From Chloroflexaceae bacterium (GTDB taxonomy: Bacteria > Chloroflexota > Chloroflexia > Chloroflexales > Chloroflexaceae): 64,000 bases of DNA. Positions 4,135-48,151 of this stretch are shown piece after piece. Location: contig JANWYD010000012.1 of assembly GCA_025057155.1 (NCBI GenBank), positions 1-64,000 on the forward strand, in the 5' to 3' direction. The notes beneath the pieces were generated by a model. It ran no database searches and was not told the origin of the DNA. It saw only the letters and a list, made by a program, of their open reading frames with translations. The translations under genes and the position numbers were made by a program. Numbering within the stretch: position 1 is the stretch's first letter; each line of letters begins with the position of its first letter.

Positions 4135-4569
<435 letters not shown>

Positions 4570-4713
4570 CCAACACTCCTGGAGCTCAGGCGTCTCTCCC
4601 GTTAGACAAAATAATATCCGGGCCGCCCTCTGGTCGTAGCACTGGCTACGCCTTAGAGTGGGCCGGTAGAACACACACTAATACGGCACACGCGAGCAGC
4701 GCGGCGATACTGA

Positions 4714-4742
4714 AGTATAGCACTCGCCGGGAGGCTTGTCAA
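4714..4742 (-). promoter_or_regulatory. Near-consensus sigma-A promoter of the str operon
   Basis: Read on the minus strand, TTGACA (4742-4737) is followed by a 17-bp spacer and TATACT (4719-4714). This gives a perfect -35 and a 5/6 -10 at ideal spacing. Transcription would start near 4707, leaving a leader of about 140 nt before rpsL. Confidence 0.85.
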
Positions 4743-4781
4743 ATTGCGCCGCGCGGGACGTACAGCAAATCCGGCTCCCAT

Positions 4782-4816
4782 GGGGGTATGGGCCGGCTGA
4801 GCCGGCCCATACCCCC
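4782..4816. repeat. Perfect 17-bp inverted repeat, 1-nt loop
   Basis: The arms 4782-4798 and 4800-4816 (GGGGGTATGGGCCGGCT and its complement) are perfectly complementary around a single G. It lies upstream of the str promoter and downstream of nfi. No T-run follows on either strand, so it is a palindromic repeat or cruciform-prone site rather than a classic terminator. The rest of 4817-4992 is GC-rich, with further short C-run/G-run palindromes (about 4878-4955) and no gene. Confidence 0.75.
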
Positions 4817-4992
4817 CGTAAAGCAGCAGCGCCTACCTCTGTAATTAGTCTGTAAAGTAAGTTTCCTGGCATTTCCGCTCCCCTCCCGGCCTCCCCCCGT
4901 TGGGAGGAGGAGCCGGCCGCCCTCCTCCAGCAGGGGGGAGGGTTGGGGAGGGGACGGGAGTTTAGCGAAAGACTTTGTTTACAGACGAATAA

Positions 4993-5682
4993 TTATAATT
5001 TGCCGTGCGATGCCAGGTTGTGGGCGCAGCGGATGGGTTCGGGCAGGCGGTAGCGGGTGACCAGCCGCAGCGTCAGTTCGACGCTGCTGTCCAGGCCCAC
5101 GCGGTGGCCAGGCGAGACGTAGACCGGCTTTACCCCAGGGCGCGTCCGCAGGACCCAGCCGATCTGTTCGCGCTGGTGCACCAGGGGCGTGCGAGCGCCG
5201 CGCGCATCGGGCACCGGGGCGTGCGTTCCAACCAGCAGCGACTTGGCGCAGCCGATGGCCGGCAGGCCGCTGAGCAATCCCAGGTGGCAGGCGATGCCGA
5301 AGCGCCGGGGATGGGCGATGCCCTGGCCATCGCAGATCAGCAGGTCGGGAGACGCGGGAAGACGGGCGAGAGCGTCGAGAATGGCCGGGGCCTCGCGGAA
5401 GGAGAGCAGCCCCGGCACGTAGGGAAAGGCGACGGGGCGCCGCGCCAGGGCATGGGCGATGGGGGCGAGAGTCTCGAAGTCAAGCGCCACAACGGCGGCG
5501 CGGGCGACTTCCCCGTTTTCCTCGAAGCCAACGTCTACGCCGGCAACCGTCCGCAAGGGGCCGAAATCGTCGGCAAGCAGCACCTGGCGGCGCAGGCGCT
5601 CCTGAAGAGCCACGGCTTCATCAATGGTTTCGGGCCAGAGGGGCTCAATCAGCGTAGCGCTCCTCTTTCCAGGGGTCAGCAT
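4993..5682 (-). CDS. nfi: Endonuclease V (deoxyinosine 3'-endonuclease)
   Basis: 229-residue DNA repair nuclease that cuts near deoxyinosine. Family motifs are clear: AGVDVGF (first catalytic Asp, ~residue 50), YVPGLLSFREAP (Glu, ~residue 95), CDGQGIAHPRRFGIACHLG (second Asp, ~residue 120), GCAKSLLVG and the C-terminal SPGHRVGLDSS. Length is normal. The chosen ATG overlaps the preceding molybdopterin oxidoreductase gene by 38 bp, so a slightly later start is possible, but the pair is probably co-transcribed. Confidence 0.93.
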   Translation of the reverse strand: MLTPGKRSATLIEPLWPETIDEAVALQERLRRQVLLADDFGPLRTVAGVDVGFEENGEVARAAVVALDFETLAPIAHALARRPVAFPYVPGLLSFREAPAILDALARLPASPDLLICDGQGIAHPRRFGIACHLGLLSGLPAIGCAKSLLVGTHAPVPDARGARTPLVHQREQIGWVLRTRPGVKPVYVSPGHRVGLDSSVELTLRLVTRYRLPEPIRCAHNLASHGKL

Positions 5683-6651: not shown

Positions 6652-9600
6652 TCATTCGACCGGTTCGAGCAGGAACACGCCACGGTCGCGGGTGGCAACC
6701 GCCACCTGCGACCCGTCGGAGCGAAAGGCGATGGCGAAGACGGCGCCTCCGTCGGTTGCAAAGTGACTCAATCGCTCACCTGTGGCGGTGTTCCAGAACT
6801 CCACCTCGCCGCTCAGGGCGCCGGTTGCCAGGACCGAAGCGTCGGGTGAAAAGGCGAGGCTGAAATACGAGCCTTGTTCCGACCCCGCTTGCAGGCTGCG
6901 CACCTCTTCGCCGCTCGAGGCTCGCCAGAGCTTCAGAGCGCCATCGGTGCTGGCGCTGGCGACCAGGTCATCGCGGGCAGCTACGTCAATCGAAGTAACC
7001 GGCGCGCCGTGGCCGCTGAAGGTGGAGCGGCGCTGGCCGTTCTGCGTATCCCAGACGATGAGCAGGGGACGATCAGAGGGTTCGTTGGTGACCGCGACGA
7101 GCGAACTCCCGTCACGGTTGAAGGCCAGGGCGGCGACCGGCCCGCCGATGCCGCGCAGGGTGCGCAGGCGCTCAAAAGTGCGCGCGTCCCAGAGGGCCAC
7201 GTCGCCGCGTTCGTTGCCCGCAGCGATCAGGCGCCGGTCGCGGCTGACGACGACGCTGAGGGCAAAGCCGTCGAGACCTTCCAGCGCGCGAGGTTCGACG
7301 CCGCCGGTCAGAGCGACGACCATCACCTTGCCGGAGTCGTTCACCACGACCAGTTGGGTATCGCTCAGAAAGCTGAGGTACTGGCTGGTCGGGGCGCCCC
7401 CGCTGAGGGCGATGGCGCGCCCATCTTCGAGCAGGTGCACCCGAATGGAGCCATTGATCCCGCCGGTAGCCAGGGCCTGGCCCGAGTCGGAGTAGCTCAG
7501 AGCGGTGACGCTGCCCTGGGCGAGCAAGGCCATCTGCAACATCTCCTGGCTATTCACGTCCCACAGGGTGACGCTGCCGCTCATATCGCTGCTCGTAGCG
7601 ATCCGCTGGCTATCGGCGCTCCAGCTCAGGCCGAGGAGGCGCAGGCCCTGCCGCTGCAAGACGCCGCGTTCCGCGCCCGAGGCGGGGTTCCACAGGTGCA
7701 CGGTGCCATCAAGACTGGCGCTGGCGAGCAGCCGCCCGTCGGGGCTGAAACTTACGCCGCGGATGACCACCCAGCCTTCGTGACCCTGCAACTCACGCTC
7801 GAGCTTGCCGGTGCGGGCGTCGAGCATGTAGACGCTGCCGCTGACCGAGCCGACGGCCAGTTGCTGCCCGTCGGGGCTGAAGGCGATGCCCGTGAGCCAG
7901 TAGGGAGCGCCGGTTGCGGGATTGGTCGGCGCGGTGTAGGCGAAGCCATCGCGGGGGGCGCCGCTGTCCACGTCCCAGAGACGAGCCGTACCATCGCGGG
8001 AGGCCGAGACCAGGCTGGACCCGTCCGGGCTGAAGGCGATGTTGCCGAGAAAATCGGTGTGGCCCTCAAGGGTGCGCAAACGCCGGCCGCTGGACACATC
8101 CCACAGCATGATTGTCGTATCAGTGCTGCCAGAGGCGAGGATGCGCCCGTCGGGGGAGAAGGCCAGACTGCGGATCCAGCCGCTGTGGCCGCGCAGGCGG
8201 CGCAGTTCCTGGCCGGTGCTTAGATCCCAGAGGATGATCTCGTTCTCGTCCTGAGCGCCGGAGGCGAGAAGTTGCCCGTCGGGGGAGAAGGCCAGGGCGC
8301 TGATGTCGCCGTTGTGGCCGGTAAGGGTGCGCCGGGCTTCGAGGCTCTCAGGATCGCGCAGGTGGATGGCGCCGCCAACGCCGACGGCGAGGGGGCCATC
8401 TCCGGGGGCGAACTGCACAGCGCCAACCGAGGCGTCTTCAAGCTGCGCGGTCTGGGTAAAGACGGCGCTCTCGGCCAGGAGCGGACCGGACGGCGCGGTG
8501 GGGGCCGCGGCGCCCTGGGCCCCGGTCCCGCTGGAGGCGGAACCGGCGTTCCCGGCGGGAGAGGTGGCGATTGTGCCGCCGCTGGAAAAGAATGGCAGTG
8601 ATGCGCCGGGGTTGGCGAGCAACCAGGCCAGGGCGGCGCCGACCAGGCAGACGCCCAGCGCCAGCACCGTAAGCAGGGCGACGATAGCCACCAGACATCC
8701 CGTGCTCAAACGTGGAGCGGTTCGCGGCGGAGCGGCAGCGGGCGCGGCCTGCCAGCCAGCGACCTGGCCCTGCGGCGTCACCGGCTGGCCAGGTTGGGGC
8801 GCGCCCGTCCAGATCGGAGGGGGCGCAGGCGGCGGCGGCCCTGCGGGCGCGATCGGACCGGCAGGGCTTCCCGCCGCAGGCGCACTCACGCTTGCGGAAG
8901 CCGAGCCAGGCGGCACGACCCTGTAGGACTCAGCCGGCTCGCTGGCGCCGAGGGGTCGCCCGGCCATCAGGCGCACTGTATCGAGTGCCCGGCGCATCTC
9001 GCGGGCCTGCTGATAACGATTGGCCGGTTTCATCTCCAGGGCGCGCAGCACCAGTTGTTCGGCGAGCGCCGAAATGCGCGCATTGAGAATGCGGGGGGCG
9101 TTTAGCGGCGCACCTGCCTGGCGCTGCGCCGACGTGGGCGGCGCCCAGCCGCACAACAACTGGTAGAGAACCGCGCCCATGGCGTACAGATCGCTCGAAG
9201 TCGTCAACTCAGCGCGGGGGTCGTTCAACTCAGGGGCGCGGTAGGGTGAGGGTTCGGCGCCGAGGGGACGCACCAGAGGAAAGGGGGCCAGAAACAGCCC
9301 GCCGTCGAGCGAGGACCATAGATCGGTGGGGCGCAGATCGCCGATGAGCAGCGGCGGAGCGTGCCCATGCAGCACCTCCAGCGTGCCCAGCAGCCGGTCG
9401 AGGTAGTTAAGCACCTCGTTTTCGGGCAATGGTCCGCCCCGGTCACGGGCGACGCGGTCGAGATCCTGGCCGCCAGGATCGTCGGCAACCAGGTAGTAGG
9501 TCAGATCACGGGCGAAGTGATCGCGCAGGCTGAGTAAACCGGGGGCGACAACGCGGGCGACCTGCTCGGCAAGGGCCCGGGCGTCGGCGAGGGCGCTCTC

Positions 9601-11427: not shown

Positions 11428-11634
11428 AACCGGCGCCGGACCGCCCCGGCGCCATCCCCTGGGCGCAGGCGCCGTGAACCTGGGGGACTCTGCGCCCCTA
11501 TGACCTTGCCGCATCAAAATGGGACAAAGAGTTTTCCTGGGAGGGTCTCGACCTCCCAAAGCCTCCGATAATCGGATAAAGTAGCGTTTGTCTCAGGAGG
11601 GCCTTGACCTCTCAAACCCTCTAATGCGGAGCTT

Positions 11635-12762
11635 ATGTTCACCTCGCGCCAGATCCCGCTACTTCTGATCATCGCGCTCATCCCGCTCCTGGGCCTGCAA
11701 TTCTTCGGCCCGCGGCTGCCCCGGCCCATGAACCTGCCCGCGCCGCAGACGGTGGAGACCCGTAACCCGCTGATCGGCGTGCACACGCGCCTGACCGGGG
11801 TCGGCGACGAGGCCTACATCCGGCGCACCCTGGAGCAGGTGCGCGAGATGGGCGCCCCCTGGATCGTCGAACTGTTCCCCTGGGCCTATGTGCAGCCCCG
11901 CTCGCGCTACGGCTACGACTGGGCCGGCGCCGACATGGTCATCGCCCACGCCCGGCGGCAGGGGCTGACCGTCGTGGCCCGCCTCGACCTGGTCCCTGCC
12001 TGGGCGCGCCCCCCGCGCACCACCGACCGTTACCTGGACCCCGAGCACTACGCCGACTACGCCGCCTATGCGGCCGCCTTCGCCGAACGCTACCGCCCGC
12101 TTGGCGTGCGCCACTTGATCATCTGGAACGAGCCGAACCTGCGCTTCGAGTGGGGCGAGCGCCCGCCCGACCCGGGGGCCTACGCCGCGCTGCTCAAGGC
12201 GGTCTACCCGGCGGTCAAGGCGGTCGTGCCCGACGCGATCGTGATCGCCGGCGCCCTCTCGCCGGGCGGCGCCCTCGATGGCGGGCAGACACGCATGGAC
12301 GATATGCAGTACCTGGCCTCGCTCTACGACGCCGAGGCCGGCCCCTTCTTCGATATGTGGGCCGTCCACGCCTACGGCGGCCAGGAACCACCCGACGCGC
12401 CGCCGGCCCCCGAGAAGGTCAACTTTCGCCGCATCGAACTGGTGCGCGCGCTGATGGACCGCTTTGGCGACGCGGCGAAGCCGATCATCGTCACCGAGGG
12501 GGGCTACAACGACCATCCGCGCTGGCAGGCCGCCGTGCGCCCCGCTGACCGCATCCGCTGGACGATCGCCACTTACGAGCAGGCGCGCAGCTACCCCTGG
12601 CTCGAAGCCGTGGCCCTCTGGCAGTTCTCCGCCCCCTACGCCACCCGCTCCTACCCGGACGCCTGGAACTTTGTGGCCCCCGATGGCACACCGCGGGCGA
12701 TCTACGACGCCGTGCGCGAGTATGCGCGGGGGAGGCAGGGGATTGGGAATTTTGGATTTTAG
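11635..12762 (+). CDS. Glycoside hydrolase-like TIM-barrel protein, membrane-anchored or secreted
   Basis: 375-residue protein with an N-terminal hydrophobic segment (residues ~8-23, LLLIIALIPLLGLQFF) and a clan-A glycosidase-like barrel. LIIWNEPNLRF (~residue 163) carries the Asn-Glu pair typical of the acid/base catalyst, and IIVTEGGYND (~residue 285) supplies a candidate nucleophile Glu at the end of a later strand. This places it near GH5/GH39-type enzymes; the substrate is unknown. The first residues overlap an N-terminal signal or anchor, so it acts outside the cytoplasm. The last codons run into an AT-rich heptamer repeat, so the C-terminus may have been altered by that repeat. Confidence 0.78.
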   Translation: MFTSRQIPLLLIIALIPLLGLQFFGPRLPRPMNLPAPQTVETRNPLIGVHTRLTGVGDEAYIRRTLEQVREMGAPWIVELFPWAYVQPRSRYGYDWAGADMVIAHARRQGLTVVARLDLVPAWARPPRTTDRYLDPEHYADYAAYAAAFAERYRPLGVRHLIIWNEPNLRFEWGERPPDPGAYAALLKAVYPAVKAVVPDAIVIAGALSPGGALDGGQTRMDDMQYLASLYDAEAGPFFDMWAVHAYGGQEPPDAPPAPEKVNFRRIELVRALMDRFGDAAKPIIVTEGGYNDHPRWQAAVRPADRIRWTIATYEQARSYPWLEAVALWQFSAPYATRSYPDAWNFVAPDGTPRAIYDAVREYARGRQGIGNFGF

Positions 12763-37405: not shown

Positions 37406-38227
37406 TTGACGCACCCTGCTCAAGGCGCTCCCGAAGCTCTCGTTCGGCGCGCCCTGCCGATTATTGGCGTGATCGCCACCCTGCTGCTGCTCTGGGAAGG
37501 GGCCCGGCTGCTGTTTGGCCTCTCCGAGCAACGTCTGCCGTCGCTCGGCTCGATCATCGAGACGATGTTCACCCCCACTCGCGGGGGCGCAGGGCCGCTA
37601 TTGATCGTGCAGATGCTGGCTAATGGCTGGGCCACCTTTCGCGTGGCCCTGGGGGGCTTTGTCATTGGCGGCTTGCTGGGCTTTGGTCTGGCGGTGCTGT
37701 TTATGCGCCTGCCGATACTGGAACGGGGCCTGATGCCCTACGTCATCGGCTCGCAGACCGTCCCTATTCTCGCTATTGCGCCTATGGTCGTTGTTGGCTT
37801 CGGGCGCATGGGCGCGCCGGCCTGGCTGGCCAAGATGGTGGTCGCCGCCTATCTGACGTTCTTTCCTGTAACGATCGGCATGTTGCGCGGGCTGCGCGCG
37901 GCCTCCCCCCAGAGCCTTGACCTGATGCACTCCTACGCCGCCACGCCGTTCCAGTACTTCTGGAAGCTACGGCTGCCGGTTTCGCTGCCCTACCTGTTTA
38001 CCGCGCTCAAAATCGCCGCCTCGGCAGCGGTGATCGGGGCGATTGTGGCCGAGTTGCCCTCAGGCGCCCAGGAGGGCATCGGGGTGATGATCCTTAACGC
38101 TGCTCAATACTACAACTCGCGACCACAGGCCCTCTACCTGGCGATCCTGGTCGCCGGCCTGGTGGGGGTCAGTTTCTATGGTCTGGTAGTGCTGGCCGAG
38201 CACCTGATCGTGAAACGGCGCGCGTAG
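37406..38227 (+). CDS. ABC transporter permease (SsuC/ThiX type), first of two
   Basis: 273 residues, about six membrane segments, with the inner-membrane component signature around LDLMHSYAATPFQYFWKLRLPVSLPYLFTALK (the EAA-type loop near residue 170) that docks to the ATPase. Starts at TTG 37406, 9 nt after GGAGG. Belongs to the nitrate/sulfonate/taurine/pyrimidine-precursor import family. First gene of a seven-gene same-strand cluster. Confidence 0.88.
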   Translation: MTHPAQGAPEALVRRALPIIGVIATLLLLWEGARLLFGLSEQRLPSLGSIIETMFTPTRGGAGPLLIVQMLANGWATFRVALGGFVIGGLLGFGLAVLFMRLPILERGLMPYVIGSQTVPILAIAPMVVVGFGRMGAPAWLAKMVVAAYLTFFPVTIGMLRGLRAASPQSLDLMHSYAATPFQYFWKLRLPVSLPYLFTALKIAASAAVIGAIVAELPSGAQEGIGVMILNAAQYYNSRPQALYLAILVAGLVGVSFYGLVVLAEHLIVKRRA

Positions 38228-38257
38228 CCACGGCACCACTCTGTCAGTTGCCCGTGG

Positions 38258-38301
38258 GCGCAACCCTCCGGGTTGCGCGCAACCCTCCGGGTTGCGCCCA
38301 T
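38258..38301. repeat. Tandem GCGCAACCCTCCGGGTTGCGC palindromes
   Basis: Two adjacent copies of a 19-20 bp palindrome, GCAACCCTCCGGGTTGC with flanking GC, between the permease and ATPase genes. A third, single copy is at 42533-42549 before the dihydropyrimidinase gene. Confidence 0.75.
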
Positions 38302-38396
38302 GCCTGTTCCCGGCAGGCAGAGACCTGGGGAACTCTGGTTTTTCCATAGTTCGGTTGGCGTCAAAGGTTTCCCCCGATACGGGTTCGAGGTTTTTG

Positions 38397-39194
38397 ATGA
38401 ACACTGCGCCCATCATCGAATTCGATCGCGTCAGCAAAGTCTACCAGAGCGGCGGCGGGCCGGTAACCGCCCTGCTCGATGTCAGCCTGAATATTGCCGC
38501 TGGCGAATTTATCGCCCTGATCGGTCCAAGCGGCTGTGGCAAAAGCACCCTGATGCGCCTGATCGGCGACCTCGAGCGCCCCAGTTCGGGCACGGTGCGG
38601 GTGAAAGGGAAAACACCGGAACAGGCCCGTCTCGATCGCGACTACGGCATCGTGTTCCAGGCGCCCGTGCTCTACGAGTGGCGCACCGTGCGCCGGAACG
38701 TGGAACTGCCGCTGGAGATCATGGGGCGCCCCCCGGCGGAGCGCCGGGAACGCGCTATGAGCCTGCTGCGCATGGTCGGCCTGGGCGATTTCGGCGACGC
38801 CTATCCGCACCAGCTTTCGGGCGGCATGCAACAGCGGGCGGCGATCGCTCGCGCCCTCTCCTTCGAGCCGTCCATTCTCCTGATGGACGAGCCGTTCGGC
38901 GCGCTCGACGAGATCACCCGCGAGCGCATGCAGACCGAGCTGCTCGGCCTCTGGTCGAGCGCCGATCCCCGCCCCACGGTCATCTTTGTCACCCACAGCA
39001 TCCCCGAAGCGGTGTTTCTGGCCGACCGGGTGGTGGTTATGTCGCCCCGACCGGGCCGCGTTCAGCGCATCGTGCCGATTGATCTACCGCGCCCGCGGGT
39101 CTTCGAGACCCGCGAGTCGCCCGCATTCTTCAGTCTGGTGACCGAGGTGCGCGAGGCCCTTCGCGCCACCGAGAACGAACGGGTGCAGGTATGA
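38397..39194 (+). CDS. ABC transporter ATP-binding protein (SsuB/TauB type)
   Basis: 265 residues. Walker A LIGPSGCGKSTLMR (~residue 44), Q-loop QAPVL, signature LSGGMQQRAAIARAL, Walker B ILLMDEPFGALDE and the H-loop THSIPEA are intact. ATG 38397 chosen with CGAGG upstream. Its stop overlaps the next permease start (ATGA, 39191-39194). Energises import for the two flanking permeases. Confidence 0.95.
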   Translation: MNTAPIIEFDRVSKVYQSGGGPVTALLDVSLNIAAGEFIALIGPSGCGKSTLMRLIGDLERPSSGTVRVKGKTPEQARLDRDYGIVFQAPVLYEWRTVRRNVELPLEIMGRPPAERRERAMSLLRMVGLGDFGDAYPHQLSGGMQQRAAIARALSFEPSILLMDEPFGALDEITRERMQTELLGLWSSADPRPTVIFVTHSIPEAVFLADRVVVMSPRPGRVQRIVPIDLPRPRVFETRESPAFFSLVTEVREALRATENERVQV

Positions 39195-40009
39195 GCGCGC
39201 CGGTACGGGCAGCCGCCGCAGCGCCTCAGGCGGGTCGGGCGGAGCGCAGGGGCTTCAGTGTGCACGACCTGTGGCCGCCGCTGCTCACCTTCGCGCTGGT
39301 GATCGGGCTATGGGAACTGGCAGTGCGGCTGTTCCAGATCCCCATCTACCTGCTGCCCGCCCCGAGCCAGATCCTGGAAACCTTCCTGGCCCGCCCGGCT
39401 TTCCTGCTGCGTATCGGGCTGGTCACATTCACCAATGCGGTGGTTGGATGCGCCATCGGGGTGAGCCTGGGCTGCCTGGCGGCGGCGCTGTGCGTGCGCT
39501 GGCGCGTGGTCGCTGACGGATTGGTGCCGCTGGCGGTGGCGGCCAGCGCGGTCCCCATCATCGCTCTCTCGCCGCTGATGGGCATCTGGCTGGGAAGCGT
39601 CAGCCCGCTCTCGAAGATCGCCGTGGTGGCGGTGATGACCTTTTTCCCGACCCTGGTGAGCGTCTACCGCGGCCTGGTCTCACCCGCCGCCGACGCGCTG
39701 ATGCTGATGCGCTCCTACGCCGCGCCGCAGCGGGCGGTGTTCGCCAAACTGCGGGCGCCGGCGGCGCTGCCATTCCTCTTTGGCGCGCTGCGGGTCTGCG
39801 CCACGCTCAGCATGATCGGCGCCGTGGTGGCCGAGTTCTTCGGCGGCCCGCAGAACGCTCTGGGGGTGTACATCAAAACCCAGGCCGGCATTCTGCACAC
39901 CCGTGAGGCCTGGTCGGCCATCCTGGTCGCCTGCCTCTTCGGGCTGGCCTTCTACCTGGCAGTGGTGCTCGCCGAGCGCGCCGCCATGCCCTGGAAACGG
40001 AGTCGCTAA
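39191..40009 (+). CDS. ABC transporter permease, second of two
   Basis: 272 residues, six or so membrane segments, EAA-type loop at ALMLMRSYAAPQRAVFAKLRAPAALPFLFGALR (~residue 160). It is homologous to but distinct from the permease at 37406, so the transporter is likely a permease heterodimer. Start overlaps the ATPase stop by 4 bp. Confidence 0.9.
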   Translation: MSAPVRAAAAAPQAGRAERRGFSVHDLWPPLLTFALVIGLWELAVRLFQIPIYLLPAPSQILETFLARPAFLLRIGLVTFTNAVVGCAIGVSLGCLAAALCVRWRVVADGLVPLAVAASAVPIIALSPLMGIWLGSVSPLSKIAVVAVMTFFPTLVSVYRGLVSPAADALMLMRSYAAPQRAVFAKLRAPAALPFLFGALRVCATLSMIGAVVAEFFGGPQNALGVYIKTQAGILHTREAWSAILVACLFGLAFYLAVVLAERAAMPWKRSR

Positions 40010-40202
40010 CGCGATAACGCTGAAGGAGGATCTGACGCCAGGCGTTCTCTTTTCTCCCGACACCCCCGCCGCGCAGAAGGGTTCGGGAGGGCAAAGCCCT
40101 GCCGGGAAAATCTTTTCCATCGCAGCCGGGCAGCGCCGCCCGCCGGCAACGGGGCAAGGGTTGATCGTTCGTGTTCGGGATGGTTGACTAAGGAGGATGA
40201 CC

Positions 40203-41267
40203 GTGCAGATGTTCAGACGCTTCGGATGGATCGCCGCCCTGCTGCTGATCGGCGCCTTGCTGAGCGCCTGCGGCCAGGCCCCCGCCACCGCGCCCACTGC
40301 CGCCCCCGCCGCGCCCACCACCGCCCCGGCTGCCCTCGTTCCCGTGCGGCTACAGTTGAAGTGGGTGACACAGGCCCAGTTTGCCGGCTACTACGCCGCC
40401 CTCGACCAGGGCTTCTACGCCGAAGAGGGACTCGATGTGACCATTCTGCCCGGCGGTCCTGACATTGTGCCGGAGCAGGTGGTCGCCGCCGGCCAGGCCG
40501 AGTTCGGCATCAACTGGATGGCCAGCCTGCTCGCCACTCGTGAGCAGGGCGTCCCGCTGATCAACATCGCCCAGGTCTTCACTCGCGCCGGGATGCGCCA
40601 GCTCTCCTGGAAGGACAGCAACATCACTTCGCCCGCCGACCTCAAGGGGCGCAAGGTGGCGGTCTGGTTCGGGGGGAACGAGTACAACCTGCTGGCAACC
40701 CTCAGCAAGTATAATATTAATAAGGATACCGATCTGACCCTGGTGCAACAGCCGTTTGATATGAACCTGCTGCTCAACCGCGAGGTTGACTCGGCCGCGG
40801 CGATGACCTACAACGAGCTGTACCAGGTGCTCAGCGCAGGCCACACCATCGAAGAATTGAACATCCTCGATTACAACGCTGAAGGCACCGCTATGCCCGA
40901 AGATGGCATCTTCGTGACCGAGGACTGGCTTAATGCCGATCCGCAGCACAAGGACATCGCCGCCCGCTTCCTGCGGGCCTCGTTCAAGGGTTGGGCTTAC
41001 TGCCGCGATAATCCCGAGAGCTGCGTTGACATCGTGCTGAAGCAGGATAGCGGCGGCGTGATGACCAGAGAGGCCCAGACCTGGCAGATGAACGAGGTCA
41101 ATAAGCTGATCTGGGGCGATCCGATTGATCCGAACACGAAGATCGGCTACCTGGAGCCATCGCTGTTCAAATTTGCGGCGGATACCGCCCTGCAGTTCGG
41201 GGTAATTAAGCAACCTGCCGATGAGTCGGCATATACTCACGAAATCTGGGAAATGGCAACGAAGTAG
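40203..41267 (+). CDS. NMT1/THI5-like substrate-binding lipoprotein
   Basis: 354 residues. The lipoprotein signal ends in LIGALLSAC (Cys ~residue 22), then a Pro/Ala linker. The body has VRLQLKWVTQAQFAGYYAALDQGFY and the WFGGNEYNLL region typical of the NMT1/THI5 periplasmic fold that binds pyrimidines and related compounds. Start GTG 40203 was chosen because AGGAGG (40191-40196) lies 6 nt upstream; an ATG at 40197 touches the site and is unlikely. Captures the substrate of the transporter. Confidence 0.9.
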   Translation: MQMFRRFGWIAALLLIGALLSACGQAPATAPTAAPAAPTTAPAALVPVRLQLKWVTQAQFAGYYAALDQGFYAEEGLDVTILPGGPDIVPEQVVAAGQAEFGINWMASLLATREQGVPLINIAQVFTRAGMRQLSWKDSNITSPADLKGRKVAVWFGGNEYNLLATLSKYNINKDTDLTLVQQPFDMNLLLNREVDSAAAMTYNELYQVLSAGHTIEELNILDYNAEGTAMPEDGIFVTEDWLNADPQHKDIAARFLRASFKGWAYCRDNPESCVDIVLKQDSGGVMTREAQTWQMNEVNKLIWGDPIDPNTKIGYLEPSLFKFAADTALQFGVIKQPADESAYTHEIWEMATK

Positions 41268-41329
41268 GGCCGAAGCATTGGCTGCGCCAATGCCTTGGCC
41301 TGGTTCCGGTGCAGTAGTAGCCAAGATCC

Positions 41330-41360
41330 CGGTATGGGGGAACCGGGTTCCCCCATACCG
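41330..41360. repeat. GGTATGGGGGAACC/GGTTCCCCCATACC palindrome
   Basis: Near-perfect 14-bp arms between the binding-protein and oxidoreductase genes, a member of the dispersed palindrome family. It could attenuate or mark the transcript between transport and catabolic genes. Confidence 0.65.
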
Positions 41361-41411
41361 CCACCGGCAGGCGACGCCGTGGGCGCCTGAAAAGGTCGTG
41401 AAAGGTGCTTT

Positions 41412-42407
41412 ATGGATTTTGCCATCACCCTGAAACTGGATATGCCGCCGGCTCGCAGCGTGGCCCTGACCCGCCAGGCCGAGGCGGCCGGCTTTAGCTA
41501 CGGCTGGGTCTTCGACTCCCACGTGCTCTGGCAGGAACCCTATCCGCTGCTCACGCTCATGGCCGCCAACACCGAGCGCATGCGCCTGGGCACCTGTGTC
41601 ACCAATCCCGCGGTGCGCGATGTCACCGTGACTGCCAGCGCTCTGGCGACCCTCAACCTGATCTCCGGCGGGCGCATGGATCTTGGCATCGGGCGCGGCG
41701 ATAGTTCCCGCCGCGTCCTCGGCAAAAAGCCCGCCACCCTGGAACACCTGGAGATCGCCACCCGCAAGATCCAGGCTCTGGCGACCGGCGTCGAGGTCGA
41801 ACACGAGGGCGCGCCGGTGCGCCTGACGTGGGCCAATCCGGCCTATCAACTGCCGGTCTGGGTGGCGGCCTATGGCCCGAAGGCCCTGCGCCTCACCGGC
41901 CGCATCGCCGACGGGGTGATCCTGCAGTTCGCCGATCCCGACCTGATCCGCTGGTGCCTGACCTTCGTCCACGAAGGCGCCCGCGCTGCCGGGCGCGATC
42001 CTGCTTCAATCAAGGTGATGGCCGCGGCGCCCGTATGGGTTTCCGACGATCTGGCCCTGGCCCGTGACCGGGTGCGCTGGTTCCCCGCCCTCGTGTCCAA
42101 CCACGTGGTCGATCTGCTGTCACGCTACGATCCCGCCGAACTGCCTCCGGCGCTGACCGCCTACGTCCAGAACCGCGCGGGCTACGACTACCGCCAGCAC
42201 GCCGAGGTAGGCTCGTCCAACGCCGCCTTTGTGAGCGATGAGGTGGTGGACCGGTTCTGTATCGTCGGCCCGCTGGAGGAACACCGCCAGCGTCTGGAGG
42301 AACTGGCGGCAATTGGCGTCAATCAGTTTAATATCTATCTCATGTCCGGCGATGAGGAGGGATGTCTGGAGCAGTACGCGCGTCTGACGCCGGAGTTCTG
42401 CGCGTAG
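41412..42407 (+). CDS. Luciferase-like (LLM) flavin/F420-dependent oxidoreductase
   Basis: 331 residues with a TIM-barrel typical of the bacterial luciferase/methylenetetrahydromethanopterin reductase superfamily. DFAITLKLDMPPARSVALTRQAE, TLMAANTERMRLGTCVTNPAVR and LGIGRGDSSRRVLGKKP are conserved parts; no cofactor discrimination can be read. It resembles the F420-type subgroup. It sits between a pyrimidine-type transporter and dihydropyrimidinase, so it may oxidise or reduce a ring before or after hydrolysis (inference). AAAGGTG precedes the ATG. Confidence 0.82.
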   Translation: MDFAITLKLDMPPARSVALTRQAEAAGFSYGWVFDSHVLWQEPYPLLTLMAANTERMRLGTCVTNPAVRDVTVTASALATLNLISGGRMDLGIGRGDSSRRVLGKKPATLEHLEIATRKIQALATGVEVEHEGAPVRLTWANPAYQLPVWVAAYGPKALRLTGRIADGVILQFADPDLIRWCLTFVHEGARAAGRDPASIKVMAAAPVWVSDDLALARDRVRWFPALVSNHVVDLLSRYDPAELPPALTAYVQNRAGYDYRQHAEVGSSNAAFVSDEVVDRFCIVGPLEEHRQRLEELAAIGVNQFNIYLMSGDEEGCLEQYARLTPEFCA

Positions 42408-42451
42408 AGTCAATACCTTCGAGACGCCGCTCACGGCAGGGCCCCCCTCCC

Positions 42452-42503
42452 AGCCTCCCCCCGCTGGGGGGAGGCTCATGGTTCCCTCCCCCACTGGGGG
42501 AGG
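42452..42503. repeat. Two C-run/G-run hairpins
   Basis: AGCCTCCCCCC/GGGGGGAGGCT (42452-42476, loop GCT) and CCCTCCCCCA/GGGGGAGGG (42485-42504) follow the oxidoreductase stop. Within an operon, they may reduce read-through. A similar sequence occurs around 4878-4955. Confidence 0.55.
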
Positions 42504-42613
42504 GTCAGGAAGGGGGCGAGTCGGCACGGTAGTGCAACCCTCCGGGTTGCGCGCCGGGGTTGGGAGGGCTCACCCCCCCCAGAACATCATCGAATTATCA
42601 AAGGAGCTAACCC

Positions 42614-44014
42614 GTGTCAACGCTGATCAAAGGTGGAACCATCGTCACGGCCAGCGACACCTTCGCTGCCGATGTCTTGATCGAAGGCGAGCAGATCGTC
42701 GCCGTGGGCCAGGGTTTGAGCGGAAACACGGTGATTGACGCCAGCGGCGCCTACGTCATTCCCGGCGGCATTGATGTGCATACGCACCTGGATATGCCCT
42801 TCGGAGGCACAGTCTCGTCGGACGATTTCTTCACCGGCCAGCGCGCAGCCGCGTTTGGCGGCACCACCATGCACATTGACTTCGCCATCCAGCCTCGCGG
42901 CGCCACCCTGCGCGAAACGCTCGACCTGTGGCACGCCAAAGCCGAGGGCAAGGCGGTGATTGACTATGGCTTCCACGTAGCCATCACCGATCTGCCCGAC
43001 AGCGTGCTCGAGGAGATGCCCCGCTGCGTTGAGTACGGGGCCACGAGCATGAAGCTCTTCATGGCCTACAAGGGCGCGCTGCAGGTTGACGATATGACCC
43101 TCTTCCGCGCCATGCAGCAGGCGGCGCGGCACCGCCTGCTGATCATGGTCCACGCCGAGAATGGCGACGCGATTGACGTGCTCATTCGCGAGGCAGTGGC
43201 CGCCGGGCAGCTTGCCCCGAAGTACCACGCCCTGACGCGCCCCCCTGAGCTTGAAGCTGAGGCTACTGCTCGCGCCGTGCGTCTGGCCGAAGTGGCCGGC
43301 GCGCCGCTCTACGTGGTGCACCTGACCAACGCCGGGGCGCTGGAAGCGGTGCGCCTGGCCCGCGCGCGAGGCAGGGCGGGGCAGATCTTCGCTGAGACCT
43401 GCACCCAGTACTTCTTCTTCACCAAAGACGACCTGGCGCGCGAGGGCTTCGAGGGGGCCAAGTGGGTCTGCTCGCCGCCTTTCCGCTCGCCTCACGACCA
43501 GGAGGCCCTCTGGCAGGGGGTGGCCGACAATTCGCTCCAGGTGGTCTCCACCGACCACTGCCCATTCTGGTTCCAGGGGGGCATTGAGGGGCGCCCTGCC
43601 GGCAAGGAACTGGGTCGCGAGAGCTTCGCCAAGATCCCTAACGGCTGCCCGGGCATCGAGGAGCGGATGATGCTCCTCTACACCTACGGCGTGCGCGCGG
43701 GCCGCATCTCCCTCAACCGCTGGGTGGAACTGTGCTGCACCAACCCCGCCAGGCTCTTCGGCTGCTACCCCCGCAAGGGCACCCTCACTCCCGGCGCTGA
43801 CGCCGATATTGTAGTGTGGGACCCGGAGGCCCGACGCACCCTCAGCGCCGCCACCCTGCACCAGCGCACCGACTATACGCTCTACGAAGGCTGGGAGGTC
43901 ACCGGCGCGCCACGGGTGGTGCTCTCGCGGGGCCGGGTGATCGTCGAGGGCGACGCCTGGACCGGCGAGGCCGGCACGGGGCGCTTCGTGCATCGTGCGC
44001 CGTTCAGCGTGTGA
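42614..44014 (+). CDS. hydA: Dihydropyrimidinase / D-hydantoinase
   Basis: 466-residue cyclic amidohydrolase. DVHTHLDMPF gives the first metal His pair, MKLFMAYKGA the carboxylated lysine (~residue 149), MVHAENGD and VVHLTN further ligands, and STDHCPF the catalytic Asp (~residue 316). It opens the ring of dihydrouracil, dihydrothymine or hydantoins. Start GTG 42614 with AAGGAG 8 nt upstream. Next gene encodes a matching amidohydrolase, forming a two-step hydrolysis. Confidence 0.93.
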   Translation: MSTLIKGGTIVTASDTFAADVLIEGEQIVAVGQGLSGNTVIDASGAYVIPGGIDVHTHLDMPFGGTVSSDDFFTGQRAAAFGGTTMHIDFAIQPRGATLRETLDLWHAKAEGKAVIDYGFHVAITDLPDSVLEEMPRCVEYGATSMKLFMAYKGALQVDDMTLFRAMQQAARHRLLIMVHAENGDAIDVLIREAVAAGQLAPKYHALTRPPELEAEATARAVRLAEVAGAPLYVVHLTNAGALEAVRLARARGRAGQIFAETCTQYFFFTKDDLAREGFEGAKWVCSPPFRSPHDQEALWQGVADNSLQVVSTDHCPFWFQGGIEGRPAGKELGRESFAKIPNGCPGIEERMMLLYTYGVRAGRISLNRWVELCCTNPARLFGCYPRKGTLTPGADADIVVWDPEARRTLSAATLHQRTDYTLYEGWEVTGAPRVVLSRGRVIVEGDAWTGEAGTGRFVHRAPFSV

Positions 44015-44140
44015 GGTGCGTTTCAGACCTGGGCGTTTCAGTCTGACCGTTGCTCCATACGTTCACGTAACCAATCCGTGGAGGCGGGGAGGTGGAGCAG
44101 ACAAGCAGCGTGCGACCAGCCTTGCCGTTGCTCTACAACT

Positions 44141-44171
44141 CCACACCTCTACACCTCCACACCTCCACCAA
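44141..44171. repeat. CTCCACACC-type short tandem repeat
   Basis: Imperfect repeats of TCCACACC/TCTACACC just before the amidohydrolase gene, pairing partly with GGAGGTGGAG at 44087. Low-complexity; function unknown. Confidence 0.5.
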
Positions 44172-44209
44172 GACGAAGTCTCGTCGCAGCACCATCAAAG
44201 GGCATGGCC

Positions 44210-45460
44210 ATGACAACCTCAACCCTCAACCCGGCCCGCACCATCGCCGAACTGAAAGAGTTGCGGGCCCTGACGGGCAACGCCGATGGCGCGCAACGGG
44301 TGGCCTGGACCGACACCTGGGCGGCGGCGCGGGACTGGTACCGCGGGAAACTGGCCGACCTGCCGGTGCGCGTTGAGACCGACGAGGCCGGCAACCTCTG
44401 GGCCACCCTGCCGGGCGCCTCGGAACGGGCCCTGCTGATCGGCGGCCATCTGGACTCGGTGCCGAACGGCGGCTGGCTCGACGGCTGCCTGAACGTGCTC
44501 GCCGGCCTCGAAGTGCTGCGCCGGGTCGCCGCCGAAGGCACGCCGCCGGTAACGCTGCGCCTGGTAGACTGGGCCGACGAAGAGGGGGCCCGTTTCGGGC
44601 GCAGCCTGCTCGGCTCCAGCGCCTTCTCGGGCACGCTCGACCCTGCGAGCGTCGCCGATCTGCGCGACCGCGATGGCGTTCTGTTGCCCGAGGCCCTGGC
44701 CGCCCACGGCGTGAACCTGGAAGGCATGCTGGCCGCCCGGCGCCAGCAGGCCAATGCCGCAGCCTACCTGGAACTGCACATCGAGCAGGGGCCAGTGCTT
44801 GAGGATCTGGGCCTGCCCCTGGGCGTGGTGATTGGCACCTTCGGCGTGGAGCGCCATCGCATTACCTTCACCGGCCAGGCGGCCCACGCTGGCTCAACGC
44901 CAATGAACCGGCGCCGCGACGCCTTCGCCGCCGCGGCGAAACTGGGCCTGGAGATCCGCGCGATCGCCGCGGGGCACGGGGGGGTCTGCACCATCGGAAG
45001 CTGCATTACCCGCCCGGGGATTGTGACGGCAGTGGTGGGAGAGTGCACCGTCACGCTGGATCAGCGCCATATGGACGCGGCGGCGCTGGCGGCAATGCTC
45101 CAGGAGGCCCGGGAGGCGGCGGGGCGCTTCGCCGCCGAGGAGGGCTGCACGGTGGCCTGGGCGCCGATCTGGAGGATCGATCCCATTCCCTTCCACCCCG
45201 ACCTGATCGCCATGGGCGAAGCGGCGATCCGCGAAGTGGCCGGCGCGGCGCATCGCCTGCCGAGCGGCCCCCTGCACGACGCGGCTGAGGTGGCCCGGGC
45301 GGGCATCCCCACTGTGATGCTCTTCGTGCAGAGCCTGGGAGGCATTTCGCACAACAAGATCGAAGACACTCGCGAAGAGCACATCGCCCTGTCGGTGCAG
45401 GCCCTCGACCGTCTCGCCGATAAGGCGATGGCGTGGATCCAGGGGGCGACGGGGGTGTAG
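44210..45460 (+). CDS. M20-family N-carbamoyl-amino-acid / ureidopropionate amidohydrolase
   Basis: 416-residue metallo-amidase of the hydantoinase/carbamoylase group (also close to allantoate amidohydrolase). Dinuclear metal ligands: GGHLDSVPNGG, LDGCLNVLAG, DEEGARFGRSLLGS, LELHIEQGP and the late GGISHNKIED. It would hydrolyse the N-carbamoyl product of the preceding dihydropyrimidinase to an amino acid, CO2 and ammonia. Two ATG codons (44204, 44210) are possible; 44210 fits the AAAGG spacing better. Confidence 0.9.
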   Translation: MTTSTLNPARTIAELKELRALTGNADGAQRVAWTDTWAAARDWYRGKLADLPVRVETDEAGNLWATLPGASERALLIGGHLDSVPNGGWLDGCLNVLAGLEVLRRVAAEGTPPVTLRLVDWADEEGARFGRSLLGSSAFSGTLDPASVADLRDRDGVLLPEALAAHGVNLEGMLAARRQQANAAAYLELHIEQGPVLEDLGLPLGVVIGTFGVERHRITFTGQAAHAGSTPMNRRRDAFAAAAKLGLEIRAIAAGHGGVCTIGSCITRPGIVTAVVGECTVTLDQRHMDAAALAAMLQEAREAAGRFAAEEGCTVAWAPIWRIDPIPFHPDLIAMGEAAIREVAGAAHRLPSGPLHDAAEVARAGIPTVMLFVQSLGGISHNKIEDTREEHIALSVQALDRLADKAMAWIQGATGV

Positions 45461-45669: not shown

Positions 45670-47208
45670 TCAAATCTTGTAACAGGATTCGCTTTCAAAT
45701 AAGCGCATTTGCAGTTGCAATACTGAACGTTCAATCAGATATTCAGGGATCGGCAACTTTTCTAGAGCGCGCGGTTCGACTTTCACGGCGCCATCACCAT
45801 ACGACTTTCCGATCATTGCGAGATTGGCAACCACATCACTATGATTCAAAATCCGCCAAAGATGATCCATATACTCATCTGTATTTATTTTAGGATAGAC
45901 GCACAGAAAGCTTGTCAGAGGGACAACCTTTGCCGTATTACGGATAAATCTCAAATTTCGACGTCCTAGATATGCAAATAAGAAAGGCGGAGGGATCCGT
46001 GACTCCATTTTATACCAGGGCTTCCGCTGAGAGATGAGCGGTTTTTGTGGCAATCCAAGAGCCTCGCCTTTTCGCAGATAATCCCTTAAACTGTCAGGAT
46101 ACTCCTCTAAGGACTCGGCATCCAGGGAAAGCAGATAGGTGGGTCTCCCTTTAGCTTCAAGTGAGTCCAAGGTTTCCTGAATAATTTCACTACCGGGCAC
46201 ATCTCTTGTGCGTCCAATCGCTCTTACGAAGTAATGAACCGGGATACGAGTACGTCGGACCTGTTCAGCGGTCATAAAAAAGAAATCATTAGCTCCAGTC
46301 GCGACTCCGCGGATTATCTGCGCGAAATCGCCAAGAACATACTTGCTTACACTCCCTGTTACTGGTGGTCGTGATAGACCTGTAGTCAAAGCCTCAGAAA
46401 GTTCGCGTTGAGTTACGCTCAAACCGTCGAAAGGCTGAATTGCAAACCCCGAACGAACCCACGTTTTCAGAATATCAGGCCGAGGCTCGTAGCACTTTGC
46501 CCAAAAACAACTTTTTTTAGGCGGCGCATTGCGAATAAAGAATACGATCGGATTCGTGTCCACACTTGGAAAAGGAGAAGCATCCGGAGAGAAGGTGAGA
46601 ACGGCATCCAGAGCATAACTTGATAAAATCCAACGCCATAGATCATATGCAAATTTACCTTCGCAAGTGTCAGCAGGCATAATAAAAGCCAAACGACCGT
46701 CTTCATTAAGCAAAGTCAAAGCGCGAATCAAGAAATATACATGCAAACCGGCACGACCGTCCAAGATTTTACCCAGAGTTCTCAAACTCAACTGCTTAAG
46801 AGACTCTTTGGTTTCATTTGACAGGCGATGATGCCGAATGTAAGGAGGATTAGCCACTATAGCAGACAACTTCTCAAGGGGGGGATGAAAAATAAAATCA
46901 CCAATCCTAACACCTCTAAGGTCATTATGACTTAATCCCTGCTCTATCGCCTGATGTAGCGCCATCGGATCAATATCCATTCCCATCAGGATGACAGATA
47001 ATTGTTTTTCTTTTTCGATGGCTTTTGCCGCCCGAAAGAAGGCTCCTGCTCCCACAGCAGGATCAAACAATGTGCGGCTCTGGTCAGCGAGCACATATTC
47101 AACCATCGCTTCAGCAACCCAATCGGGCGTCCAGAACTGCCCTTTCTGGCGCAGCAATTCTCTAGCCGCACCTGACGAAGGAATTTTATAGTAGTTAATC
47201 TTTTGCAT
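45670..47208 (-). CDS. Type II DNA adenine-N6 methyltransferase (gamma class)
   Basis: 512 residues. FDPAVGAGAFFRA (~residue 48) is the SAM motif, VANPPYIRHH (~residue 118) the NPPY catalytic motif with target recognition C-terminal to it (Eco57I-like gamma order). It protects sites cleaved by the neighbouring endonuclease. The gene is visibly AT-richer than its neighbours, consistent with acquisition. Its ATG overlaps the endonuclease stop by 14 bp. Confidence 0.88.
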   Translation of the reverse strand: MQKINYYKIPSSGAARELLRQKGQFWTPDWVAEAMVEYVLADQSRTLFDPAVGAGAFFRAAKAIEKEKQLSVILMGMDIDPMALHQAIEQGLSHNDLRGVRIGDFIFHPPLEKLSAIVANPPYIRHHRLSNETKESLKQLSLRTLGKILDGRAGLHVYFLIRALTLLNEDGRLAFIMPADTCEGKFAYDLWRWILSSYALDAVLTFSPDASPFPSVDTNPIVFFIRNAPPKKSCFWAKCYEPRPDILKTWVRSGFAIQPFDGLSVTQRELSEALTTGLSRPPVTGSVSKYVLGDFAQIIRGVATGANDFFFMTAEQVRRTRIPVHYFVRAIGRTRDVPGSEIIQETLDSLEAKGRPTYLLSLDAESLEEYPDSLRDYLRKGEALGLPQKPLISQRKPWYKMESRIPPPFLFAYLGRRNLRFIRNTAKVVPLTSFLCVYPKINTDEYMDHLWRILNHSDVVANLAMIGKSYGDGAVKVEPRALEKLPIPEYLIERSVLQLQMRLFESESCYKI

Positions 47209-48151
47209 TCGCCAACTCCCTTAGAATATGCAGCGCTTCTTGGGTTAAAGACATTGCCCCACCCTCGAAGTGAATGTATGGCAATATATGACCGTTTTTA
47301 TCTATGATATATTTGGCGATAAGATTTGGCTCATCATGAGCATCACTGACCTGATAACCATAGTGGTAATAAAATTTATAAATCATCTTTCTAGTTATTG
47401 CGCCTCCAGGAGCTTGAAAAGTCTGTTCTACCGGCTGGATATAACCTTCCTCTATTAATCTTTGACCTTCATCGAAAGCAATTCCAAATGCCATATCGTA
47501 GAACACATGCCAAATGTGAACAGGGACATTATTCGTATCTTGCCAGATCTGTAACTGTTTACGGTCCTCTTCTTTCAAGATAATCGTAGGCAGAACTGCA
47601 TTCTTTCTCAAGCCTTTTTTACCGCCTAATCTTTTTTGCGGCTTCAAATCAGCTCCATAATCCGGCATGAGCTTCGCCTTCCAGAGGCTATTCTCGCATT
47701 CTACTGCAACAATAGCTTTCTGCAATAACATTTGCATATCCTTGCCGTCTTCCGTAGTAAAAGGCAACTCAGAAACGCCGCCAAGATGCTCAACCACTTT
47801 CTCGATGAATCGTTGGTCTGCTTTGTTGAAAACTAACAGGTCCGGGCGCTTTATTTCACCTAGTCCGGCCTTTTCTAAACGCTCAAAATAGAGTTCGAAC
47901 TCCCTGACATCATTATCCGGCGCGGTCCCGCTGGGACCATATCGTATTGCAAAGAAATCATTGGTTTCATTGACTGCCTGAACGATACGTTCTTCACTCC
48001 ATAAACCTTGTGACCACCGCATAAGAAAATCACTGCCTCGCAAGCGACGAGGATTGAGCAGAAAACTTGACCACTCGACAGAGGCATGTCCCTTGAGTTC
48101 AAACTCGATATCCTCAACGCATGCACTAAATATGTCATCAAAGAGGCGCAT
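47195..48151 (-). CDS. Type II restriction endonuclease, AccI/XamI-like
   Basis: 318 residues. KRPDLLVFNK (~residue 100) followed about 70 residues later by VAVECENSLWKAKLMPDYG is compatible with a PD-(D/E)xK nuclease core. The protein resembles type II enzymes partnered with gamma methyltransferases, perhaps AccI-like or XamI-like; specificity is not predictable. Upstream of and overlapping the methylase gene, same AT-rich composition. No controller protein seen. Confidence 0.72.
   Translation of the reverse strand: MRLFDDIFSACVEDIEFELKGHASVEWSSFLLNPRRLRGSDFLMRWSQGLWSEERIVQAVNETNDFFAIRYGPSGTAPDNDVREFELYFERLEKAGLGEIKRPDLLVFNKADQRFIEKVVEHLGGVSELPFTTEDGKDMQMLLQKAIVAVECENSLWKAKLMPDYGADLKPQKRLGGKKGLRKNAVLPTIILKEEDRKQLQIWQDTNNVPVHIWHVFYDMAFGIAFDEGQRLIEEGYIQPVEQTFQAPGGAITRKMIYKFYYHYGYQVSDAHDEPNLIAKYIIDKNGHILPYIHFEGGAMSLTQEALHILRELANAKD

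Follow-up and report, generated by a model that had tools for sequence, protein, structure and literature searches.

Which enzyme performs the first step of pyrimidine breakdown when a gene cluster carries a dihydropyrimidinase and a carbamoylase and no dehydrogenase? The question is raised by a stretch of 64,000 nucleotides, referred to here as the window (Chloroflexaceae bacterium, GCA_025057155.1, contig JANWYD010000012.1, positions 1–64,000, forward strand), which lies on contig 12 of a source genome of 5.13 Mb (189 contigs, rated 100% complete). The initial annotation described, on one strand, a luciferase-like (LLM) oxidoreductase gene between an NMT1-type importer and dihydropyrimidinase/carbamoylase genes, noted that the cluster holds no dehydrogenase gene, and inferred a possible flavin- or F420-linked ring step within a variant pathway. 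The arrangement was confirmed by open reading frame calls together with Pfam and NCBIfam matches, and so was the absence of a dehydrogenase gene from the cluster. We consider it likely that the LLM protein is an F420H2-dependent dihydropyrimidine dehydrogenase (uracil/thymine reductase) that replaces PydA (PreTA), an enzyme with iron-sulfur clusters and FMN, as step 1 of the pathway. The proposal is made without biochemistry; the identity, order, conservation and neighbours of the gene, as well as the predicted fold of its product, are observed.

The seven-gene run and the missing dehydrogenase

The run of seven genes occupies positions 37406–45460 of the + strand:

37406–38227, +, ABC importer permease 1 (PF00528; 44% to a permease of the Roseinatronobacter preTA-hydA operon)
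38292–39194, +, ABC importer ATPase (PF00005; 53% to the Roseinatronobacter pyd-operon ATPase); by eye, the real start is probably near 38400
39191–40009, +, ABC importer permease 2 (PF00528; 41% to the second Roseinatronobacter permease)
40197–41267, +, NMT1/THI5-type substrate-binding protein of the importer (PF09084, 151 bits; 47% and 43% to its counterparts in two preTA-hydA operons)
41412–42407, +, LLM oxidoreductase of 331 residues (TIGR03842, 431.7 bits), putative F420H2-dependent uracil/thymine reductase
42614–44014, +, dihydropyrimidinase hydA (TIGR02033, 598 bits, cut-off 393.25)
44204–45460, +, M20 N-carbamoyl amidohydrolase, beta-ureidopropionase candidate (TIGR01879, 286 bits, cut-off 204); start picked by eye, the frame being open from 44078

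A dihydropyrimidinase (TIGR02033) and an N-carbamoyl amidohydrolase (TIGR01879), both above cut-off, are thus found together, which was the criterion for a reductive pyrimidine operon. The solved structures nearest to HydA are those of D-hydantoinase/dihydropyrimidinase, and the solved relatives of the M20 protein include beta-alanine synthase and N-carbamoyl-beta-alanine amidohydrolase as well as allantoate and N-carbamoyl-L-amino-acid hydrolases. A scan of the sequence for sigma-70 promoters and terminators gave counts no better than those in shuffled sequence. Directly after the operon, on the - strand (45670–48151), an Eco57I-type N6 methylase and an AccI-type endonuclease form a probable type II restriction-modification pair.

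A PydA-type dehydrogenase encoded elsewhere in the genome would have refuted the variant pathway; it was looked for and none was found above cut-off. The best match of the source genome to the PreA model (NF006183) reached 70.7 bits against a cut-off of 335, and none of the 80 related genomes, the source genome included, encodes a protein above this cut-off. Four DHO_dh matches are present in the source genome, i.e., a quinone-type PyrD, a PRK07565 protein, a PyrD-like protein below cut-offs and one match of 21 bits.

Family, fold and conserved residues of the LLM protein

The LLM protein matches PF00296 with 203 bits (cut-off 27.9) and exceeds the cut-off of TIGR03842 (F420_CPS_4043) with 431.7 vs. 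295.45 bits over 323 of 329 positions. The latter is a luciferase-like NCBIfam family that is labelled F420-dependent and classed as a hypothetical equivalog, without assigned function. The next-best model is one of Mer, whose two cut-offs are not reached (161.2 vs. 276 and 134.6 vs. 348.7 bits), and PreA (NF006183) is not among the 25 listed of the 27 families matched. The AlphaFold model, built from 45 sequences, has a mean pLDDT of 94.2 and a pTM of 0.92. In structural comparison its nearest folds are those of Mer (Z 36.1–37.5), which is put first by Foldseek as well and also ranks first by sequence among solved structures. F420-dependent alcohol, hydroxymycolic acid and glucose-6-phosphate dehydrogenases follow (Z 29.2–33.3), so that the top 15 structural matches (Z 29.2–37.5) are all F420 enzymes, while FMN enzymes start at Z 28.1. 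By sequence and by fold, the closest relatives of the protein are F420 enzymes.

These comparisons bear on the possibility that the protein is an FMN- and O2-dependent ring-opening monooxygenase similar to RutA, which is itself a luciferase-fold enzyme acting on uracil and whose structure (6sgg) was matched at Z 25.9, rank 34. Since all of the 15 best structural matches are F420 enzymes, and no RutA chain occurs among the 17 solved-structure sequence matches at E ≤ 1e-3, this reading was judged very improbable. The product of RutA would, moreover, have no need of a dihydropyrimidinase, which argues in the same direction.

In Mer, the catalytic Glu6, a cis-peptide between Gly61 and Val62, and Asp96 have been described (PMC11094777). 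When aligned by eye, Gly61-Val62 and Asp96 correspond to Cys62-Val63 and Asp97 of the window protein, and the position of Glu6 is taken by Thr6. Threonine stands at this position in 45 of 45 close relatives, and 12 distant members have Cys, Val or Thr, four each. The exchange of Glu6 for Thr6 is in keeping with an enzyme in which the F420 site is retained and methylene-pterin is not protonated. Despite an overall identity of 43%, the 16 conserved residues that were checked are the same in the window protein and in the protein encoded on Leisingera plasmids (N65, R69, R95-G96-D97, R101, Y154, Q172, W223-F224, N230-H231, Y258, Y260, H263 and Y309), and it is inferred that they line the pocket. 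Counting against this correspondence, the conserved positions T6C, C62L, D175E and N270Y are changed in the Leisingera protein. For the residue comparison, 13 proteins were added locally to the 45-sequence alignment, two of which (Leisingera) are near-identical.

Gene neighbourhoods, plasmid operons and PreA-type genes

Among the 80 related genomes the LLM gene is present in 20, source genome included. In 17 of the 19 other neighbourhoods the next pathway gene is hydA, on the same strand and no more than 671 bases downstream, and the other two neighbourhoods are cut short by a contig end, 205 and 32 bases beyond the LLM gene; the linkage of the LLM gene with hydA is more than chance. Might the protein act at a downstream step, e.g., in an F420-linked reduction of malonate semialdehyde, with step 1 left to an unlinked enzyme? 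Alcohols and sugars are indeed substrates of other LLM F420 enzymes (1rhc, 3b4y), and some genomes with the LLM gene also hold PreA or PreA-like genes. However, the gene stays with hydA in these neighbourhoods, only four of which carry an aminotransferase and one MmsA, and PreA above cut-off is lacking from all 80 related genomes, so that a downstream role can be given very little weight.

A wider scan of GTDB genomes, in which the best 80 of 111 loci were taken and a tblastn score of 60 bits or more was required for a neighbour to be counted, covered Chloroflexota, Acidobacteria, one Armatimonadetes and one Myxococcales; the proteins closest to that of the window within this set come from a Chloroflexaceae genome (96% identity) and a Chloroflexi genome (94%). 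A hydA gene was found in 52 of the 80 loci, a beta-ureidopropionase-type nitrilase in 52, an M20 gene in 7, a class-III aminotransferase in 31, MmsA in 18 and an NCS1 symporter in 7, and at least one of these six in 72. Two loci (L087 and L116) each carry hydA, nitrilase, aminotransferase, MmsA and NCS1 together. cofE is present in six loci (five Chloroflexota, one Armatimonadetes), PreA in none and a PreA-like gene in two. Eight loci lack a pathway gene; in six of them the LLM gene is no more than 500 bases from a contig end, and in L101 and L142 a contig end is reached within about 2.1 kb on one side. If the count is restricted to the 32 loci that extend 3 kb to either side, hydA is present in 25, and at least one of hydA, nitrilase and M20 in 30; the other two (L110 and L143) carry aminotransferase, cofE and F420-type genes. 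The reference neighbours were verified, MmsA being above the MMSDH cut-off, NCS1 above the ncs1 cut-off and CofE above its own. The nearest solved relatives of the nitrilase are the fly and human beta-ureidopropionases, and its best NCBIfam model, N-carbamoylputrescine amidase, is matched below cut-off. In an unsupervised clustering of open reading frames the pathway and importer families also come first; the biggest cluster mixed several families with antisense frames, and the counts were taken from tblastn instead. The phylum and order of the G-numbered genomes were inferred via contigs that match named ones. The 80 loci overlap the 19 related neighbourhoods and several contigs are identical, so the two counts are not independent.

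A further 14 loci of the phylum, chosen by us, include 12 with hydA or nitrilase and two (L198, L199) with neither. The latter come from genomes of 13.7 and 8.9 Mb that have an FO synthase and in which the LLM gene lies apart from pyrimidine genes. The five other LLM genes of the source genome have no hydA, carbamoylase or nitrilase match within 1.5 kb on each side (more for three of them), and four haloarchaeal LLM loci have no hydA, M20 or nitrilase match. The haloarchaeal loci are not clean controls, as hydantoinase/oxoprolinase (HyuA/HyuB) genes are annotated in three of the four. An independent archaeal hint is offered by Haloferax volcanii, in which the luciferase-family gene HVO_A0295A is reported to be co-induced with dpyS and amaB2, i.e., dihydropyrimidinase and carbamoylase (PMC6801745).

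The neighbours also bear on the substrate. TIGR02033 covers hydantoinases and dihydropyrimidinases alike, hence another heterocycle (hydantoin, xanthine-derived yanthine or a barbiturate-like ring) could be reduced or oxidised by the LLM enzyme and then opened by HydA and the carbamoylase. In PMC12507026, a luciferase-family F420 yanthine reductase is proposed in uric-acid clusters of Chloroflexota, and SsnA of such clusters is often found together with HyuA and with YgeY, an enzyme of PF01546. Nevertheless, the nitrilase, class-III aminotransferase, MmsA and NCS1 neighbours fit the formation and use of beta-alanine, the importer of the window is homologous to those of preTA operons, and the Leisingera regulator is homologous to theirs, which makes another heterocycle improbable as compared with uracil or thymine.

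On plasmids, the LLM gene was detected at E ≤ 1e-60 in 12 of 72,556 records, and three annotated ones were inspected. The plasmids of Leisingera aquaemixtae and L. caerulea carry the order cofG-cofH-cofD-cofC-cofE-npdG-LLM-TetR, where npdG encodes an NADPH:F420 reductase, and divergently from it pntA-pntB-aminotransferase-M20 (Zn hydrolase)-hydA-NCS1. The plasmid of Paracoccus alcaliphilus has cofG-H-D-C-E-npdG-LLM followed by an ABC importer of a different type, whose binding protein shows 25–26% to those of preTA operons, and no hydA is annotated within 12 kb of its LLM gene. An unannotated Streptomyces plasmid has a nitrilase, hydA and a weak aminotransferase match near the LLM gene. The Paracoccus, L. 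aquaemixtae and Streptomyces proteins all exceed the TIGR03842 cut-off. The order of LLM, hydantoinase and carbamoylase genes had been singled out for a conservation survey, and the linkage proved to be kept in Chloroflexota, Acidobacteria, one Streptomyces plasmid and two Leisingera plasmids. Of the two ring chemistries named at the outset, the F420-linked one is strongly favoured by the cof-npdG-LLM order of Leisingera and Paracoccus, and the flavin/RutA one is weakened, as the nearest structures are F420 enzymes.

Two other plasmid genes fall below the TIGR03842 cut-off. A plasmid of Variovorax sp. PBL-E5 (L215) encodes an LLM protein of 202.7 bits together with cofGHDCE, npdG, a nitrilase and a HydA-like gene, possibly a second F420 heterocycle pathway. 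A Rhodococcus plasmid LLM protein (221.8 bits, fragment scanned) has no pathway gene match and a partial CofH match nearby.

PreA was found in 62 plasmid records; no Leisingera, Paracoccus or Streptomyces is among the 60 listed, and three were inspected. Those of Roseinatronobacter and Qingshengfaniella (Rhodobacterales) have the order preT-preA-TetR-M20-hydA-ATPase-permease-permease-binding protein, and in Sinorhizobium pSymB preT-preA is not accompanied by hydA within the stretch shown. The determinants reported for competitive Sinorhizobium strains (PMC8407117) include an fbi operon together with pntAB, dihydroorotase, M20 and luciferase-family groups. HydA of the window is 48% and 45% identical to that of the two preTA operons, the Leisingera M20 and HydA proteins are 68–74% identical to theirs, and the Leisingera TetR shows 53% and 47% to their TetRs and 47% to Sinorhizobium RutR (198 bits against the RutR model, under its cut-off of 368). 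The importer and HydA of the window and the Leisingera M20, HydA and TetR are thus homologous to components of preTA operons, so that importer, regulator and hydrolases are found again around a different reductase. The M20 protein of the window shares only 31% identity with its preTA-operon counterparts, which counts against this.

Do the two reductases exclude each other? Strict mutual exclusion failed in 400 genomes of the phylum, where the LLM gene is present in 76 and PreA above cut-off in 7: PreA types are commoner where the LLM gene is present. Above cut-off they occur in 4 of the 76 LLM-gene genomes vs. 3 of the 324 others (p 0.03), and matches at E ≤ 1e-60 in 13 of 76 vs. 4 of 324 (p 2e-7). 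The stretches around the four PreA genes above cut-off in LLM-gene genomes (L188–L191) showed no hydA or LLM match. In two of the 80 loci (L100 and L116, the latter also seen as L186) the LLM pyrimidine cluster itself contains a PreA-like gene, scored on the G204 copy (L186) at 290.9 bits against the cut-off of 335, so both reductase types co-occur there, and these clusters weaken the replacement reading for their clade. The inference of a variant pathway is well supported by context, i.e., by the conserved linkage and the lack of PydA above cut-off, with the caveat that PreA-type genes co-occur in some relatives.

Within the 80 related genomes, the highest PreA matches below cut-off (152–155 bits) belong to ferredoxin-bearing DHOD-type proteins of G007, G022 and G029, all of which have the LLM gene. 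The G029 protein, of 423 residues, is of DHOD type with ferredoxin motifs and reached 166.9 of the 335 bits when scanned. In the corresponding loci (L065, L064 and L063 in G022, G007 and G029, genomes whose LLM contigs match Candidatus Chloroploca), a second DHOD-like frame precedes this gene, and in G029 a xanthine-dehydrogenase-like gene follows it, as in a possible reductive purine cluster. Given this neighbour, the G029 protein is perhaps a purine enzyme; it recalls the uric-acid reductase UacX (PMC12507026), but could act on uracil too.

F420 supply, the proposed pathway and known systems

If the enzyme uses F420, the source organism must obtain the cofactor, and a check for F420 synthesis genes gave a mixed outcome. 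The tail enzymes exceed their cut-offs, with 327.5 bits for CofD (257.45), 179.9 for CofC (105) and 278.6 for CofE (180.65), and are encoded on contig 24 (L014), where cofC and cofD are adjacent and cofE lies about 1.9 kb off:

4236–5267, LLM gene of TIGR03557
8031–8651, cofC
8670–9599, cofD
11450–12205, cofE

The LLM gene of this contig, about 3 kb from the cof genes, belongs to the F420-type family TIGR03557 (286.3 bits, cut-off 210.4) and also scores 312.8 bits against the FMN-type TIGR03885, below its cut-off of 398.7. An FO synthase, be it CofG/CofH or FbiC, was not found in the source genome, with no TIGR03550 or TIGR03551 match at E ≤ 0.001. The same holds generally in its order. In the 80 related genomes, single-contig ones included, CofD is above cut-off in 61 and CofH in 1; CofD (E ≤ 1e-30) is present in 19 of the 20 LLM-gene carriers, none of which has CofH above cut-off, and in 47 of the 60 non-carriers. 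The finding exposes a bacterial order with F420 tail enzymes and almost no recognisable FO synthase. An argument from co-occurrence of F420 synthesis within the phylum failed, as carriers of the LLM gene do not possess FO synthase more often than non-carriers: CofH is above cut-off in 54 of the 400 phylum genomes, i.e., in 8 of 76 with the LLM gene vs. 46 of 324 without (Fisher p 0.46).

It may thus be asked if the Chloroflexota members perform the same reaction with another donor, FMNH2 or NAD(P)H, in organisms unable to make FO, which would agree with the missing CofG/CofH of the source genome and with an FO synthase that does not track the LLM gene in the phylum. On the other hand, CofC, CofD and CofE are above their cut-offs in the source genome and cofC is adjacent to cofD in 29 of 30 loci, source genome included, so that a deazaflavin precursor is presumably available; the nearest folds are those of F420 enzymes, and many conserved residues match the Leisingera protein, which is encoded with a full F420 pathway. 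A different donor was accordingly held to be unlikely, though not negligible. The use of F420 is well supported for the family by the Leisingera and Paracoccus operons, and less certain for the source organism; there it would require FO uptake or an unknown FO synthase.

In the proposed pathway the ABC importer would take up uracil, thymine or a close relative, and the LLM enzyme would transfer a hydride from F420H2 to the C5=C6 double bond, yielding dihydrouracil or dihydrothymine. HydA would then open the ring, and the M20 enzyme may remove the carbamoyl group to give beta-alanine or beta-aminoisobutyrate. The reaction, its direction, the cofactor in the source organism and the imported substrate are inferred only. 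The proposal offers a testable function for TIGR03842, so far a hypothetical equivalog. It would also give the rare cofactor F420 a defined task in Alphaproteobacteria and Chloroflexota, and so in bacteria for which the purpose of this cofactor is obscure. The redox solutions known for uracil and thymine reduction are NAD(P)H and ferredoxin (PMC7332683); if the proposal is true, F420 is the third. No published assignment of TIGR03842 to pyrimidine breakdown was found among the papers listed in searches of openly licensed PMC literature, without preprints. A bolder extension, for now doubtful, is that pyrimidine breakdown is one of the chief tasks of F420 in many non-mycobacterial bacteria, that Rhodobacterales plasmids carry the whole F420 pathway for this one step, and that in the Chloroflexota order of the source organism, with its tail enzymes and no known FO synthase, the step relies on FO imported from neighbouring organisms or produced by an unrecognised enzyme.

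How does the window system compare with known ones? With PydA/PreTA it shares the slot beside HydA and M20, an importer homologous to that of preTA operons and, in Leisingera, a homologous regulator. Unlike PydA/PreTA, the LLM gene has no FAD or Fe-S subunit beside it, and the proposed electron carrier is F420 in place of NAD(P)H or ferredoxin; the protein has no BLAST match better than E 0.37 to 14 preTA-locus proteins and none to Roseinatronobacter PreT or PreA. It resembles Mer, the F420-dependent methylene-tetrahydromethanopterin reductase, in structure (1f07, Z 37.5, rmsd 2.5, 312 aligned residues, 28% identity), but differs in scoring below the Mer cut-offs and in having Thr6 for Glu6. 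With RutA, the FMN-dependent uracil monooxygenase, it has in common the luciferase fold and the presumed substrate, whereas the fold score is lower and the downstream genes differ. Finally, the putative yanthine reductase is likewise an F420 LLM protein in the slot of a DHOD-type/YgfK enzyme before a cyclic amidohydrolase; unlike the enzyme proposed here, it is placed in a purine pathway with SsnA, and that proposal is a close conceptual precedent (PMC12507026).
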